From the NCBI RefSeq assembly GCF_002795805.1, contig NZ_CP018799.1, forward strand, positions 1,977,001 to 2,041,000: a DNA stretch of 64,000 bases, given 5' to 3'. Below are positions 3,385 through 32,095 of this stretch, one piece after another. Under the pieces are notes generated by a model. That model had not been told where the DNA came from. It saw only the letters and a list, made by a program, of their open reading frames with translations, and made no database searches. Position numbers and translations under genes: made by a program. This DNA comes from Mariprofundus aestuarium (GTDB lineage Bacteria; Pseudomonadota; Zetaproteobacteria; Mariprofundales; Mariprofundaceae). The first letter of the stretch is position 1. Each line of letters starts with the position of its first letter.

Positions 3385-4101
3385 TCATCCGCCCAGTTCA
3401 CGGGTGGCTGACTCTATGTCCCGCTCCAGCCTTTTAAGCAGTTCAGTTCGGTGGACGGAATTAACCTCCTCCGCAGTGATATAGGGCAGGAAACGGAATG
3501 TGATCGTGCCGGGTTTCTTAATAAAACCGCGTTTTGGCCACAACGCACCGGCATTGTGTGCCATAGGCAGGATGCCGGACTCCGCCTTGTGGGCGAGGAT
3601 CACGCCGCCGGGCTGGTATTTACCCGTACTGCCGGCTTCCGAACGCGTCCCTTCGGGGAAAATAACCACCCAGCGCCCCTTCTCCAGCATATCCCTGCCA
3701 TCGTGAATCACCTGTTTAATCGCTTCACGCGGGGATCCGCGACGGATGCCGATAGTCCCCATCAGTGCCAGCGCCCAGCCGAAGAAGGGAATGTTGAACA
3801 GTTCACGCTTCAGGATCCAGGTATAGGGTGGCACAAGAATCGGCATCGCCACGGTTTCCGCAGCCGACTGATGTTTGGCCATCACCACGCAAGGCTCATC
3901 GGGCATAAACTCTTTACCCTCGATTATAATGCGAATGCCGCAAAGCAGCCTTAGCAGCAGGAATATGGTGTTCGACCACATTTTTGCCCACAGCCATGAT
4001 GCTGAAAAGCCAAACGGACGAAACAGGATAACCAGCAGCGAGAAGAGCGGCGTAAGAATCATAAAACAGGCGTTAAACAGGGCTGATCGTATGGCCAGCA
4101 T
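3385..4101 (-). CDS. 1-acyl-sn-glycerol-3-phosphate acyltransferase family (PlsC-like)
   Basis: Acyltransferase expected to acylate lysophosphatidate or a related lysophospholipid at the inner membrane. The N-terminal 45 residues are hydrophobic. Motif I is KHQSAAET, an H-X4-E version of the usual H-X4-D. Motif III is FPEGTRS, preceded by GTIGIRRGS. Length is about 238 residues, normal for the family. GTG at 4104 overlaps the stop of gmhB by one base, but ATG 4101 has the better-spaced GGGAG. Coupling with gmhB suggests a shared envelope-synthesis transcript. The exact acyl acceptor is not determined. Confidence 0.88.
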   Translation of the reverse strand: MLAIRSALFNACFMILTPLFSLLVILFRPFGFSASWLWAKMWSNTIFLLLRLLCGIRIIIEGKEFMPDEPCVVMAKHQSAAETVAMPILVPPYTWILKRELFNIPFFGWALALMGTIGIRRGSPREAIKQVIHDGRDMLEKGRWVVIFPEGTRSEAGSTGKYQPGGVILAHKAESGILPMAHNAGALWPKRGFIKKPGTITFRFLPYITAEEVNSVHRTELLKRLERDIESATRELGG

Positions 4102-4103
4102 CA

Positions 4104-4682
4104 CTATTCTCCCATGATGAAATCAACTGCAGCTGCAAGATCGGCAAAGGCCATGATATCCGGCATCAGAAGACGTGATTTCTGCAGAATCGCATCACTA
4201 TCACCATAACCACTCTGCACCAACATCGCTGGCACACCGGCTGCAGATGCAGCCTCCACATCGCGAATGGAGTCACCGATAAACAGCGCCTGTTCAGGCG
4301 AGTCGGAAAGCTCCAGGGCAACAAGCGAATCATGCACCATACCAGGCAACGGTTTCCGGCAGAGGCAGGCATCCTCAGGCCCATGCGGACAGTAAGCGAC
4401 ATGCGTAATGAAACCGCCGGCCTGCTCAATAGCTAGCATCATCTTGGCATGGATCGCACTGAAGGTCTCCTGCCCCATCATGCCGCGCCCAAGCGCTGAC
4501 TGATTACTGACAATGGTTACGCTGATGCCTGTCTGCGTTAACCGGGCAATAGCTTCAAGGCTACCGGGAATCGGAATCCACTGCTCAGGCGTAAGGATAT
4601 AGTCGGGTGAATCGAAATTGATAACACCATCACGATCCAGAAGTACGGCTTTGGGTATAAAAAACACAGGCTGATTCGACAT
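4104..4682 (-). CDS. gmhB: D-glycero-beta-D-manno-heptose 1,7-bisphosphate 7-phosphatase
   Basis: HAD-superfamily phosphatase that removes the C7 phosphate of heptose bisphosphate on the way to ADP-heptose for the LPS core. The nucleophile motif is LLDRDGVIN, the Thr/Ser motif is VSNQSALGRG, and GDSIRDVEAA closes the site. The zinc-binding insert CPHGPEDACLCRKP has the Cys/His ligands characteristic of GmhB. An upstream ATG at 4706 would add eight residues. Neither start has a strong ribosome site. Partner enzymes of the pathway (gmhA, HldE cytidylyltransferase) lie near 29.4 and 31.6 kb. No heptose kinase is in the window. Confidence 0.9.
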   Translation of the reverse strand: MSNQPVFFIPKAVLLDRDGVINFDSPDYILTPEQWIPIPGSLEAIARLTQTGISVTIVSNQSALGRGMMGQETFSAIHAKMMLAIEQAGGFITHVAYCPHGPEDACLCRKPLPGMVHDSLVALELSDSPEQALFIGDSIRDVEAASAAGVPAMLVQSGYGDSDAILQKSRLLMPDIMAFADLAAAVDFIMGE

Positions 4683-4765
4683 GGATGAACCATACGCAGC
4701 ATGCATTACAATGAAAAGATGGAGCAGAATAAAATCTACGGGAGCGCTGGTATCTCAGCGCACCC

Positions 4766-28192: not shown

Positions 28193-29050
28193 ATGGAATC
28201 GCAGCCTAAACATCAAACCCCCACTGGCCAACTTTTCGTCGTTGCCACACCGATCGGAAATCTTGGTGATATTACCTACCGTGCAGTAGAAACGCTGAAA
28301 AACGTTGATCTTATTGCCGCCGAGGACACCCGTACCAGCCGCAAACTGCTGCAACACTGCGGCATCAGCACACCGATGATAGCCGTTCACGAACACAACG
28401 AAGAGTACGCAGCCGGGAAATTGCTGCAGCGGCTGCAGCAGGGAGAGAGCATTGCACTGATCTCTGATGCAGGCACACCTCTGATCAGTGATCCGGGCTA
28501 CCGACTGGTTCGCAAACTTCGCAGCGAAGGCATCCGCATCACCCCGATACCCGGGGCAAGTAGTGTTTTAACCGCACTATGCGCTGCGGGATTGCCTACC
28601 GACCACTTCCGTTTTGAAGGTTTTCTTCCCCGTAGTGGCGCATCCCGCTCAACAGCGATGCAGAGGGTGGCAGAATCTTCTGAAACCAATGTCATCCTCG
28701 AATCGCCACGTCGCCTGCTGAGTAGCCTGAAAAATCTTCAACCGTTGCTGGAAGAGGTGCGTGAGCTTGTTGTTGCACGCGAACTGACCAAGCTGCACGA
28801 GGAGTTTATATCTGGCACGGTGGCAGAACTGATTGCCCACTTCTCCGAGCATGCACCGCGTGGTGAGATCGTGCTGATTGTCGCCCCTTGCCTGCCGAAG
28901 GTGAGGGGGGAGATCCACGATGAGGATATCCATGCCCTGCTTGAAACTGCCGTGATGCAAGCCCTGCCACCCTCGGCCAGAGCCAAAAGTGTGGCCAAAG
29001 AGCTGGGCGTTTCCAAATCACGGGTTTATGACCTGATCACGGGGCAATGA
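28193..29050 (+). CDS. rsmI: 16S rRNA 2'-O-ribose C1402 methyltransferase
   Basis: SAM-dependent methylase of C1402 at the decoding centre. N-terminal signature LFVVATPIGNLGDITYRAVETL, then AAEDTRTSRKLLQ and ISDAGTPLISDPGYRLV, with the class III (tetrapyrrole methylase) fold. A C-terminal helix-turn-helix-like end reads AKELGVSKSRVYDL. Length is 285 residues, as usual. No ribosome site precedes the ATG, which lies 37 bases from the divergent lpoA start, so a very short leader is likely. Its stop overlaps yraN as ATGA. Confidence 0.95.
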   Translation: MESQPKHQTPTGQLFVVATPIGNLGDITYRAVETLKNVDLIAAEDTRTSRKLLQHCGISTPMIAVHEHNEEYAAGKLLQRLQQGESIALISDAGTPLISDPGYRLVRKLRSEGIRITPIPGASSVLTALCAAGLPTDHFRFEGFLPRSGASRSTAMQRVAESSETNVILESPRRLLSSLKNLQPLLEEVRELVVARELTKLHEEFISGTVAELIAHFSEHAPRGEIVLIVAPCLPKVRGEIHDEDIHALLETAVMQALPPSARAKSVAKELGVSKSRVYDLITGQ

Positions 29051-29409
29051 GTACATCACAAGGGCGCAGCGGTGAAGAGATCGCAGCCCGATACCTCAGC
29101 CGCAGGGGCTTTAATATCATCGCTCGCAACATTCGCCTTGGTCGTGGAGAGCTCGATATCATCACCAGCTCCGATGAGCTCCTGCTGTTTGTCGAAGTCA
29201 AAGCGCACAAAACAAGAGGCTCGGGCCTGCTTGCTGTGAACGCGGATAAATGCGCCCGGCTCTACTCTGCTGCTGAAGCGTGGCTGGTCAAATACCCGCG
29301 ATATGCAGGTTTGCAATGCCGCTTTGATTTAATCATCGTCACCCCTAGAATGGGCTTACCCAGCTGGGTGCCTGCGCGCATCGAGCATATGAAGGATATA
29401 ATCAATTGA
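29047..29409 (+). CDS. yraN: YraN/UPF0102 endonuclease-fold protein
   Basis: A 120-residue protein of the UPF0102 family with a restriction-endonuclease-like fold; cellular role unknown. GELDIITSSDELLLFVEVKAH provides the D-x(n)-E-x-K catalytic-type residues, preceded by GEEIAARYLSRRGFNIIARN. Starts inside the rsmI stop and ends inside the start of gmhA, so the three are read as one transcript. Confidence 0.9.
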   Translation: MSTSQGRSGEEIAARYLSRRGFNIIARNIRLGRGELDIITSSDELLLFVEVKAHKTRGSGLLAVNADKCARLYSAAEAWLVKYPRYAGLQCRFDLIIVTPRMGLPSWVPARIEHMKDIIN

Positions 29410-29993
29410 ATAGAGATCTGATCAATCAGGCCATGACCGATGGCATCGAACTTCGCAAGCAGTGCATGGAAACATTGTCGCAGCCGCTGCTGGATGCGGC
29501 ACAAGCGATTGTCGATTGCCTGCAGGGCGGCGGAAAAATTCTCGCCTGTGGCAATGGTGGTTCAGCGGCCGATGCCCAGCATTTTGCTGCCGAACTGGTC
29601 AACCGGTTTGAGATCAACCGGCGAGGGCTTGCAGCTATCGCTCTGACCCATGACGCCTCAGTGATCACCAGTATCGCCAATGACTTCTCGTTTGACCGTG
29701 TATTCTCCAGACAGGTGGAAGCACTGGGAAGACCCGGGGACCTTCTTCTTGCCATTTCCACCAGCGGCACCTCGAATAATGTCACAGCAGCAGCTGAAGC
29801 TGCCACCTCAGCCGGCATGCATACCATCGCCCTGACTGGTCGTGATGGCGGCGATCTGGGCCACAACAACAACATTAAAGTTCACATCAACATCCCTCAC
29901 AACTCCACCCCTCGCATCCAGGAGATGCATATCACCTGCCTGCATATCATCTGCTCCCTTGTAGATCAGCACATGTTTGGAGAAACGCCATGA
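29406..29993 (+). CDS. gmhA: SIS-domain sedoheptulose 7-phosphate isomerase (GmhA/DiaA family)
   Basis: A 195-residue SIS-domain protein. Phosphosugar site CGNGGSAADAQHFAAELVNRFE, ISTSGTSNNV, LTGRDGG, and the catalytic-type RIQEMHITCLHIICSLVDQ with Glu and His. GmhA makes the first heptose intermediate. The homologue DiaA at the same place in E. coli instead binds DnaA. The residues kept here and the nearby HldE cytidylyltransferase favour GmhA, with less certainty than the family. Starts with TTG overlapping the yraN stop and ends overlapping the next gene as ATGA. Confidence 0.85.
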   Translation: MNRDLINQAMTDGIELRKQCMETLSQPLLDAAQAIVDCLQGGGKILACGNGGSAADAQHFAAELVNRFEINRRGLAAIALTHDASVITSIANDFSFDRVFSRQVEALGRPGDLLLAISTSGTSNNVTAAAEAATSAGMHTIALTGRDGGDLGHNNNIKVHINIPHNSTPRIQEMHITCLHIICSLVDQHMFGETP

Positions 29994-30943
29994 CCATTAA
30001 ACCTCTCTCATTCGCAAAAATGAAAACCACCCCCATCTCCAAGCGTGAAGTGGACAGTGAAGGTATGGATTTCGCAGCCCCTTATCAGGCTGGAAGCGGC
30101 TTTGAAAACTTTCTTTGCAGCCTTCCGAATCTGGGCTGTGCAGCAGACCTGTTTCACCTGCGTGATGCCATCGTCACCGCCTACCGCCACAAACATCAGG
30201 TCATCCTTGCATGCGGTGGCCATGTTCTTGATTCAGGCTTGGGGCCGCTGATCTGCCGACTGATTGAACAGCGTATTATCAGTGGGTTGGCGCTGACAGG
30301 CGCGGCACTGGAGCTCGATGTCGAGATAGCGATCATGGGGCAGACTGTGACTTCCAGAGAGCGTGAGTTGAACGACGGCCACTACTGCCTGACTGAGGAA
30401 ACGGGTTGCCTGATCAACGATGCGATTAATTATGGTGCAACTGAAAACTGGGGTATCGGGAAAAGTGTCGGCAAGCGGCTCCTAGAGTCCGAATTCGAAC
30501 ACCTGAATCACTCTATTGTAGCTACGGCAGAGCGTTACGGTATACCTGTATCGGTGCATCCGGCAATCGGTGCCGATGCATTTGGCATGCACCCTGCTGC
30601 ACACGGCGAGTCACTGGGCGCCTCCAGCTTTAGGGACTTCCGCTTGCTGGCTGGTATGCTGGCGGAATCCAGCCATGGTGTGATCCTCAATATTGCATCC
30701 AGTGTAATTATGCCACGCGTGCTACTGCAGGGACTCGATGCGGCACGTAATGTTGGCAAAACCATCGAGGGTCTTACAACAGCCGTAATCGATCCCGCCG
30801 CCTCGACTGCTGCGATTACCGATGTGGTAGAACGCCTGTCGCAACCGGATGGGCAGGGCTACTGGCTATCCGGTCCGGATGATATCCTTGTACCTCTTCT
30901 TTTCGCCTCCGTGATTGAAGCGCTGGGTGACGAGGTCATCTGA
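29990..30943 (+). CDS. Uncharacterised protein, deoxyhypusine synthase-like fold suspected
   Basis: A 317-residue cytoplasmic protein. I recognise it only as a conserved hypothetical family in which a Rossmann-type segment (ACGGHVLDSGLGPLICRLIE, ALTGAALELDVEIAIMGQT) and a PVSVHPAIGADAFGMHP-type motif recur. The layout recalls deoxyhypusine synthase-type NAD folds, but no hypusine substrate protein is expected in bacteria. It is translationally coupled to gmhA (ATGA) and lies upstream of the HldE cytidylyltransferase, so a role in heptose or sugar-phosphate metabolism is plausible. This gene is absent from the matching E. coli block. Function unknown. Confidence 0.75.
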   Translation: MTIKPLSFAKMKTTPISKREVDSEGMDFAAPYQAGSGFENFLCSLPNLGCAADLFHLRDAIVTAYRHKHQVILACGGHVLDSGLGPLICRLIEQRIISGLALTGAALELDVEIAIMGQTVTSRERELNDGHYCLTEETGCLINDAINYGATENWGIGKSVGKRLLESEFEHLNHSIVATAERYGIPVSVHPAIGADAFGMHPAAHGESLGASSFRDFRLLAGMLAESSHGVILNIASSVIMPRVLLQGLDAARNVGKTIEGLTTAVIDPAASTAAITDVVERLSQPDGQGYWLSGPDDILVPLLFASVIEALGDEVI

Positions 30944-31052: not shown

Positions 31053-31625
31053 ATGTTCTACCTAAGATTTTTTATCATTATTTCGGCAATGCTTTCACTC
31101 TCAGGCTGTTTTGCAGCTGTTGTCGGTGGTACTGCGGCCGTTAGCAACTCAGCCCATGACGAGCGCAGCCTCGGCATCCAGATGGATGATGCCGCGCTGA
31201 CAACCAAGATTGATGCGCGTTTGATTGCTGAGAAGGATATGCCATCACGATGGGTCAGCGTGCAGGTTATTGATGGAAATGCCACGCTGACCGGCCACCT
31301 TCCCAGCCAGCAGCATATTGACCGGGCTATCTATATTACTAGGTCAATCGAGGGGGTTCGCTCGGTGCATTCAGAATTACTGGAAGGTGAACCGGAGATC
31401 CGTTCTATCATGACAGACAGCTGGATCACCACCAAGGTGAAAACCAAATTGTGGAACGATGAAGATGTGTCCGGCTTTGCCATCAAGGTGGAAACCGTAA
31501 GTGGAAGAGTTTACCTGCAGGGCATTGTGGATACATTTGTTCAGCGCCAGCACGCCAAGGATTTGACCAAATCTGTTGAAGGTGTGACCGCCGTAATTGA
31601 CCTGATGCGAATCGCACAGAAGTGA
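31053..31625 (+). CDS. dolP: BON-domain outer-membrane lipoprotein (DolP/YraP-like)
   Basis: A 190-residue lipoprotein with lipobox LSGC near residue 18 and two BON domains (about 45-115 and 120-190, for example WVSVQVIDGNATLTGHLPS and FAIKVETVSGRVYLQGIVD). DolP binds anionic phospholipid at the division site and supports outer-membrane integrity. Its position after the rsmI-yraN-SIS genes is the same as in E. coli. The frame extends upstream, but ATG 31053 has AAGGAG nine bases ahead and a lipoprotein signal. Ends in a GTGA overlap with the next gene. Confidence 0.9.
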   Translation: MFYLRFFIIISAMLSLSGCFAAVVGGTAAVSNSAHDERSLGIQMDDAALTTKIDARLIAEKDMPSRWVSVQVIDGNATLTGHLPSQQHIDRAIYITRSIEGVRSVHSELLEGEPEIRSIMTDSWITTKVKTKLWNDEDVSGFAIKVETVSGRVYLQGIVDTFVQRQHAKDLTKSVEGVTAVIDLMRIAQK

Positions 31626-32095
31626 ACCATTCTACCGAATGGGAGGCTGCCCGCAGGCAGGTTGAACAGTGGCGCGAAAGCGGCAAAAAAATTATATTCA
31701 CCAACGGTTGTTTTGACCTTCTCCACCCGGGCCATATCGACTACCTGACAAAAGCGAGAGCGCTGGGTGATGTTCTTATCGTCGGCCTGAATGATGATGA
31801 CTCAATCAGGCGCCTGAAAGGGCAGAGCCGCCCCATCACTCCGCTTCAGGACAGGCAGGTCATGCTTTCTGCACTGAAGTCAGTCACGCTGGTCGTGCCG
31901 TTTGAAGAGGATACGCCGCTTGGGCTGATCAAAACCCTGCTACCGGACATTCTGGTCAAAGGTGGCGATTATGAGCCGGACAATATCGTCGGGGCAGTGG
32001 AAGTCAGAGAAAATGGCGGCCACGTCTCTGTTATCACCTTCGTCGATGGCCACTCCACTACAGCGCTGATCAAACGCATTCAGGAGATCGGGTAA
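31622..32095 (+). CDS. rfaE2: D-beta-D-heptose 1-phosphate adenylyltransferase (HldE C-terminal domain)
   Basis: A 157-residue nucleotidyltransferase that makes ADP-heptose from heptose 1-phosphate. Motifs IFTNGCFDLLHPGHIDYL (HxGH), VGLNDDDSIRRLKG and FVDGHSTTALIKRI are complete. In E. coli this activity is fused to a ribokinase-type domain in HldE. Here it stands alone, so the heptose kinase must be encoded elsewhere. GTG start overlaps the dolP stop by four bases. Confidence 0.92.
   Translation: MNHSTEWEAARRQVEQWRESGKKIIFTNGCFDLLHPGHIDYLTKARALGDVLIVGLNDDDSIRRLKGQSRPITPLQDRQVMLSALKSVTLVVPFEEDTPLGLIKTLLPDILVKGGDYEPDNIVGAVEVRENGGHVSVITFVDGHSTTALIKRIQEIG

Follow-up and report, generated by a model that had tools for sequence, protein, structure and literature searches.

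We identified a candidate auxiliary enzyme of heptose supply, encoded immediately downstream of gmhA within a 64,000 nucleotide stretch of the Mariprofundus aestuarium genome (the window), and we put the probability of this reading at roughly 0.45. The protein, for which we use the short name DHSL, is encoded at 29990-30943 on the forward strand and combines a predicted deoxyhypusine synthase (DHS) fold with loss of the DHS catalytic residues, invariant charged residues of its own and linkage to gmhA or hldE in separate lineages. The features of the window that bear on this reading are the following.

4104-4706, reverse strand: GmhB-like HAD phosphatase, probable heptose 1,7-bisphosphate 7-phosphatase (75 bits, below the cut-off of 149.6)
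28193-29050, forward strand: rsmI, part of the conserved locus
29047-29409, forward strand: yraN (UPF0102), part of the conserved locus
29406-29993, forward strand: gmhA, sedoheptulose 7-phosphate isomerase, coupled to DHSL by an ATGA overlap
29979-29993, forward strand: Shine-Dalgarno-like GGAG and ATGA start/stop overlap
29990-30943, forward strand: DHSL gene, 317 amino acids, ATG start, GSU2086 family (NF052581), predicted DHS/ArgZ-C fold without the DHS catalytic segment
31053-31625, forward strand: dolP-like BON-domain lipoprotein
31622-32095, forward strand: hldC-type single-domain heptose 1-phosphate adenylyltransferase (HldE domain II)

The genes run in the order rsmI-yraN-gmhA-DHSL-dolP-hldC-pdxB, and two further neighbours in the window are presumably lpoA and orn. 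Escherichia coli K-12 has the order rsmI/lpoA-yraN-diaA-dolP and no DHSL; compared with it, the original prediction was correct in describing the gene as inserted into an otherwise E. coli-like rsmI/lpoA-yraN-SIS-dolP arrangement, ahead of dolP and of a single-domain HldE-type nucleotidyltransferase, the latter scoring 204 bits against TIGR02199 (cut-off 181.5). The SIS protein retains E65 and H180, the DiaA counterparts being S65 and N180 (E. coli GmhA numbering), and was therefore assigned as GmhA, with DiaA ruled out by these residues. We take positions 65 and 180 to be active-site residues. Its scores fall just under two GmhA cut-offs (260.4 against 276 and 207.5 against 209.45) and far under the DiaA cut-off (176.3 against 352). 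The GmhB-like gene abuts an ORF, the two lying within positions 3385-4706 of the window, which we take by eye from its motif to be a PlsC-type acyltransferase.

DHSL is a real and intact ORF of 317 codons, present in one copy in a genome consisting of a single 2.54 Mb contig. The stop codon of gmhA ends at 29993 and overlaps the start of DHSL as ATGA (29990-29993), as originally described, while a Shine-Dalgarno-like GGAG lies within the 3′ end of gmhA at 29979-29982. A GGAG- or GGGAG-type stretch precedes the DHSL start in 18 of 19 DHSL-positive loci, window included (exception L094), and the ATGA start is found in 17 of the 19 (exceptions L094 and L101). Scanning for promoters and terminators returned signals no more frequent than in shuffled sequences. 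Named relatives from four Mariprofundus records and two zetaproteobacterial bins (n = 6) are 77-88 % identical. DHSL is, judged from sequence comparison, under purifying selection: dN/dS was 0.04-0.09 in the 17 of 21 pairs for which it was calculable, the other four being saturated and these values approximate, since dS exceeded 1 throughout.

The window protein belongs to NCBIfam NF052581 ("GSU2086 family protein"), whose model matches its residues 5-306 with 332.9 bits (cut-off 250). The family was already named, without a function, and DHSL would place a known fold family in a metabolic context that is new for it. Two branches can be told apart by an extra YYxRP[WY]KT segment near the C-terminus, which is present in type A (eight members, alignment A4: Solidesulfovibrio, Chloroflexota, G138 and five f21 genomes) and absent from type B, the zetaproteobacterial branch (15 members, A5), as well as from a viral relative. 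Comparison of the type-A and type-B profiles gave a probability of 100 and an E-value of 1.7e-41 over 297 columns, and the two are therefore regarded as one family. Nine residues are invariant in 25 aligned members (A2), namely G83, D110, E137, G155, H190, G194, D196, D216 and P242; with D110, E137, H190, D196 and D216 forming the charged subset, an active site different from that of DHS is plausible.

The first structure model, built from seven close sequences and no DS proteins, was of low confidence (pLDDT 42.6), and all 50 of its Foldseek matches listed were DHS. The second, built from 11 sequences, reached a pLDDT of 71.7 and a pTM of 0.75 but was poor at residues 1-37, 42-48, 121-132 and 193-197, the last stretch containing D196; its alignment includes three DS proteins, which may favour a DHS-like model, and no ArgZ or LOR/SDH proteins. 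Using VIA-align the second model gave tied scores for ArgZ (Z 21.4, 213 residues aligned, 2.7 Å), DHS 7cmc (Z 21.4, 261 aligned, 3.4 Å), AgrE (Z 21.1, 218 aligned, 2.8 Å) and the LOR/SDH protein 3c2q (Z 20.9, 223 aligned, 3.2 Å). DHSL is thus predicted to share its fold with DHS and with the ornithine cyclodeaminase domain of ArgZ/AgrE, which is NAD-dependent, in keeping with the DHS-like fold first proposed (VIA Z about 21). A relation to SIS proteins was not seen, either among Pfam families to an E-value of 1 or among the 50 VIA matches listed. Across the matches listed, DHS structures gave Z scores of 19.0-21.4 with 258-270 residues aligned, and profile-profile comparison with PF01916 gave an E-value of 6.8e-6 and a probability of 84.6 over 200 columns. 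ArgZ/AgrE (PF21570) and 3c2q gave Z scores of 20.5-21.4 with 213-224 residues aligned, and an HDxE stretch is common to type-A members and ArgZ/AgrE. The type-A profile matches ArgZ in the PDB (E 7e-4) and two of the four type-A members scanned exceed the PF21570 cut-off (30.3 and 30.0), whereas DHSL lacks the arginine dihydrolase part of ArgZ/AgrE and the window protein reaches 12.7 against a PF21570 cut-off of 27. Searched by sequence against the PDB, the window protein had no match to an E-value of 10 and the family profile had weak matches (best 0.027). AgrE binds ornithine and NAD+, according to the title of its PDB entry.

A Pfam DS match of 29.6 bits, over the gathering score of 27, together with the predicted fold would fit an ordinary deoxyhypusine or homospermidine synthase, yet this explanation is already contradicted and retains almost no credence. 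DHS equivalog scores are minimal (best 20.4 against 434). When 18 DS proteins were aligned jointly with 26 family members (the 25 of A2 and the viral one), the Trp and Lys of the catalytic segment were present in 18/18 DS proteins, whereas among the family members Trp is found in none, Lys in one and Glu in one; the GGG loop is complete in 18/18 DS proteins and in no family member, the middle glycine being absent from all 26 (A236-S237-S238 in the window protein), and the DS-invariant Asp (D204 of L143) is replaced by His in 26/26. In a separate alignment the window protein has a gap where the DS proteins have the segment that ends in WGK. Lys 329 of human DHS carries the imine intermediate, and the enzyme takes and returns hydride through NAD (PMC7226451). 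As the WGK segment, GGG loop and invariant Asp are all missing in the family, DHS activity of DHSL is very unlikely, and NAD binding is not assured given the changes to the loop and the Asp. The RPWKT motif of type-A members was considered as a possible source of the DHS catalytic Lys; WK is present in seven of the eight (YK in Chloroflexota) but does not align with the DS Lys. Relatives of true DS are encoded at 22 viral loci (L189-L210), three full sequences of which (L207-L209) keep an SWGK segment.

DHSL matches were found in 55 of 150 genomes, M. aestuarium included, comprising 50 of the 78 genomes of its order and five of the wider phylum. A family model extended the search to 398 genomes of the phylum and matched 57, 49 of them over the cut-off, with a weak match in G078 (116 bits). 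Direct adjacency of gmhA and DHSL, on one strand and with DHSL downstream, was observed in 50 of the 55 (49 of the 50 in the order, together with G078); in G060 DHSL lies at a contig end. At locus L099, from the same family as the window, the gmhA-DHSL pair has gmhB nearby, and neither rsmI nor yraN was matched ahead of the pair. The class of G138 includes six DHSL genomes. Linkage to HldE-like genes was found in two of these, G138, where the GmhA-like gene lies on the opposite side of DHSL (HldE-like-DHSL-GmhA-like), and G153, a genome found by the family model in which DHSL adjoins an HldE-like gene. A contig break may separate the two genes in G108: DHSL begins at base 85 of one contig, and an HldE-like gene runs to about base 134 of a different one. 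The remaining three have no such linkage, DHSL being beside neither a gmhA nor an hldE match in G111 and G132, nor on the 4 kb contig of G192, which was found by the family model.

Two plasmid records contain DHSL relatives. The Solidesulfovibrio plasmid has an HldE-like gene, DHSL and a GmhA-like SIS gene in that order, and the Chloroflexota plasmid has consecutive genes for a HAD protein, DHSL, a PfkB-type kinase (138.6 bits against the HldE kinase model, cut-off 345) and a GmhA-like SIS protein (118.1 bits against GmhA, cut-off 209.45). A SIS protein encoded on Lawsonia plasmids is 48 % identical to the Solidesulfovibrio one, and no DHSL was found there. No phage record matched DHSL, no viral contig matched when the window protein was the query, and the PHROGs collection gave no match for the window protein, the viral relative or two of the viral neighbours. 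The viral relative, 37-40 % identical, is encoded by a virus of about 200 kb (IMG/VR 3300022696_000071, 201 kb, and 3300022701_000122; L185, L291), the two contigs being 99.98 % identical over the 12.7 kb compared; within 10 kb of it none of the neighbours matched 33 reference proteins, heptose references included.

In this survey of gene neighbourhoods the heptose link of DHSL recurs in unrelated lineages and in more than one arrangement. Occurrence away from heptose genes, which would weigh against the original prediction, was not widespread among the genomes surveyed, the exceptions being G111, G132, G192 (on its 4 kb contig) and the virus. These same exceptions would suit a DHSL that has a function unrelated to heptose and rides along in a conserved operon, as would a rsmI-yraN-gmhA-dolP locus that is conserved for other reasons and holds the unrelated genes pdxB and yraN, but we consider this explanation very doubtful as heptose-type linkage recurs in other lineages with different neighbours.

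SIS proteins beside type-A DHSL (L083, L084 and L085) have D65, N69 and E172 (E. coli GmhA numbering), which suggests a changed substrate. In the HldE-like proteins of Solidesulfovibrio and G153 the kinase domain follows the nucleotidyltransferase domain, opposite to the arrangement in the HldE profile, and the scores are far below the HldE cut-offs (domain order was scanned in two, L084 and L087). Within one proteobacterial class 40 of 48 genomes carry HldE-like relatives (for example L084:10321-11850 and L174-L184), and 35 of these lack DHSL, which, like the Lawsonia SIS gene, speaks against an obligatory link. Type-A clusters, with their divergent kinase/nucleotidyltransferase and isomerase, could serve a parallel pathway that makes an unusual heptose or a related sugar, type B then being a reduced relative that keeps the link to gmhA. 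The differences at GmhA positions 65, 69 and 172 in the SIS proteins of the Chloroflexota, Solidesulfovibrio and G138 clusters speak for such a pathway, as do the low scores and opposite domain order of the HldE-like proteins. Zetaproteobacterial GmhA, however, keeps its canonical residues with or without DHSL, and we regard a parallel pathway as decidedly unlikely.

The nucleotide-heptose pathway is regarded as complete with GmhA, HldA/HldE, GmhB, HldC and HldD. The original prediction rightly found no heptose kinase in the window, but its hint that DHSL answers for a missing kinase was wrong. A stand-alone HldE kinase domain (HldA) is encoded elsewhere in the same genome (G000:C1:1166137-1167054; the window is 1977001-2041000 of the same contig) and scores 353.6 bits over a curated cut-off of 345, while HldD, also encoded outside the window, scores 297.4 bits over 274.6. 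The canonical heptose route appears complete in the genome, apart from the doubt left by the GmhB score. With HldA, HldD and the GmhB-like protein all present DHSL fills no gap in the pathway, and this role was ruled out. Across the order's 78 genomes HldA was found in 69 (43 of the 50 with DHSL and 26 of the 28 without it, E limit 1e-40) and HldD likewise in 69 (45 of 50 and 24 of 28, E limit 1e-50), many of these assemblies being incomplete; the GmhB search covered the M. aestuarium genome. As the 28 genomes of the order without DHSL largely keep HldA and HldD, DHSL is dispensable for the basic pathway there.

Among these 28 DHSL-negative genomes gmhA was matched in 25, two of the matches being weak, and we examined the loci of 20 in which gmhA was found. 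Eleven have yraN before gmhA and nine have gmhA followed by hldC with no yraN match. Remnants of DHSL were detected in the gap after gmhA at four loci, their E-values being lower than that of any of 190 shuffled controls (minimum 7.7e-4): L127 (1.4e-17 and 8.0e-12), L110 (7.6e-8 and 1.1e-5) and, marginally, L114 (1.7e-4) and L129 (4.4e-4). Nothing significant was found at 15 of the other loci, and the gap at L111 was too short for the test. The remnant at L127:4075-4284 is a 69-residue in-frame ORF with start and stop, made up of N- and C-terminal pieces of DHSL and lying 2 bases after the gmhA stop. Genus g4 accounts for three of the four remnant loci and g3 for the fourth, L114; in each genus other members carry DHSL intact. 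On these sequences DHSL was present in the ancestors of the remnant lineages. Mapped onto a tree of eight syntenic genes with 40 tips, a weak tree given that several loci carry just two of the genes, DHSL presence requires 6 changes, against a mean of 13.6 and a minimum of 8 in shuffles. DHSL was probably lost more than once in zetaproteobacteria, and repeated loss suggests that it is conditionally useful. A dependence of GmhA sequence on DHSL was not seen in a comparison of 16 positions between DHSL-positive and DHSL-negative zetaproteobacteria, the same canonical residues being kept in both except at 169 (P or A in both sets), for T120S in L096 and for an X in L101.

The main rival to the enzyme reading makes DHSL a partner subunit of GmhA, a non-catalytic regulator, produced from one coupled transcript with GmhA and in complex with it (or with HldE), which senses NAD or a sugar phosphate and sets the heptose flux. 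In its favour are the ATGA coupling, the unvarying position beside gmhA within the order, loss of the DHS catalytic residues and absence from some genomes that keep gmhA. A catalytically dead DHS paralogue acting as an activator has moreover been published for trypanosomes (PMC3663545), and this protein, with a DHS fold lacking the catalytic residues, is a possible model for a regulatory subunit. Its partner is however an active DHS, and none was found in the M. aestuarium genome at an E-value of 1e-20. In G153 the neighbour of DHSL is an HldE-like gene and not gmhA, in G111 and G132 DHSL adjoins neither, and its invariant charged residues suggest an active site. We therefore consider a partner subunit somewhat unlikely.

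Experimental data bearing on the family come from a Geobacter sulfurreducens transposon screen on electrodes. In PMC5585712 the log2 ratios are -3.1 for GSU2085 (hldE), -3.2 for GSU2086 and -3.7 for GSU2087 (gmhA), and GSU2086, which we place in the family by the name of NF052581, is labelled a "hypothetical cytoplasmic protein in sugar biosynthesis operon". The authors also describe cassette read-through as sufficient against polar effects in an operon that they discuss and indicate further examples, so that a phenotype of GSU2086 itself is likely, though not certain. Searches of the open-licence literature gave nothing linking the DHS fold to heptose apart from this Geobacter table, and nothing on Mariprofundus with heptose.

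Returning to the auxiliary enzyme, DHSL would act on the pool of sedoheptulose 7-phosphate or heptose 7-phosphate, probably in an NAD-dependent manner. The ornithine cyclodeaminase reaction of AgrE works by transient oxidation. The simplest reading is an NAD-dependent conversion, for example epimerisation, of sedoheptulose 7-phosphate or heptose 7-phosphate, which would make or correct a heptose isomer. That DHSL is a catalyst which uses NAD, and what its substrate and its step in the pathway would be, we infer from a fold known for NAD chemistry and from placement beside GmhA and heptose-kinase-type genes. Of the NAD-linked or sugar-phosphate role in heptose supply first suggested for the gene, the heptose part is consistent with the recurrent linkage and with the Geobacter screen, while NAD use is suggested by a fold in which several of the positions conserved in DHS have changed. 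We tentatively propose that a fold for NAD chemistry on polyamines and amino acids may have been recruited to sugar-phosphate metabolism, providing an unrecognised step of nucleotide-heptose synthesis beside gmhA/hldE in Proteobacteria, Desulfobacterota and Chloroflexota that zetaproteobacteria have lost on more than one occasion.

A conserved extra protein with a Geobacter phenotype close to those of hldE and gmhA points to an unrecognised enzyme or control step. The enzyme reading, if true, would represent a new use of the DHS/ornithine cyclodeaminase fold, and it opens a testable question, that of the effect of GSU2086 on sedoheptulose 7-phosphate or heptose 7-phosphate.
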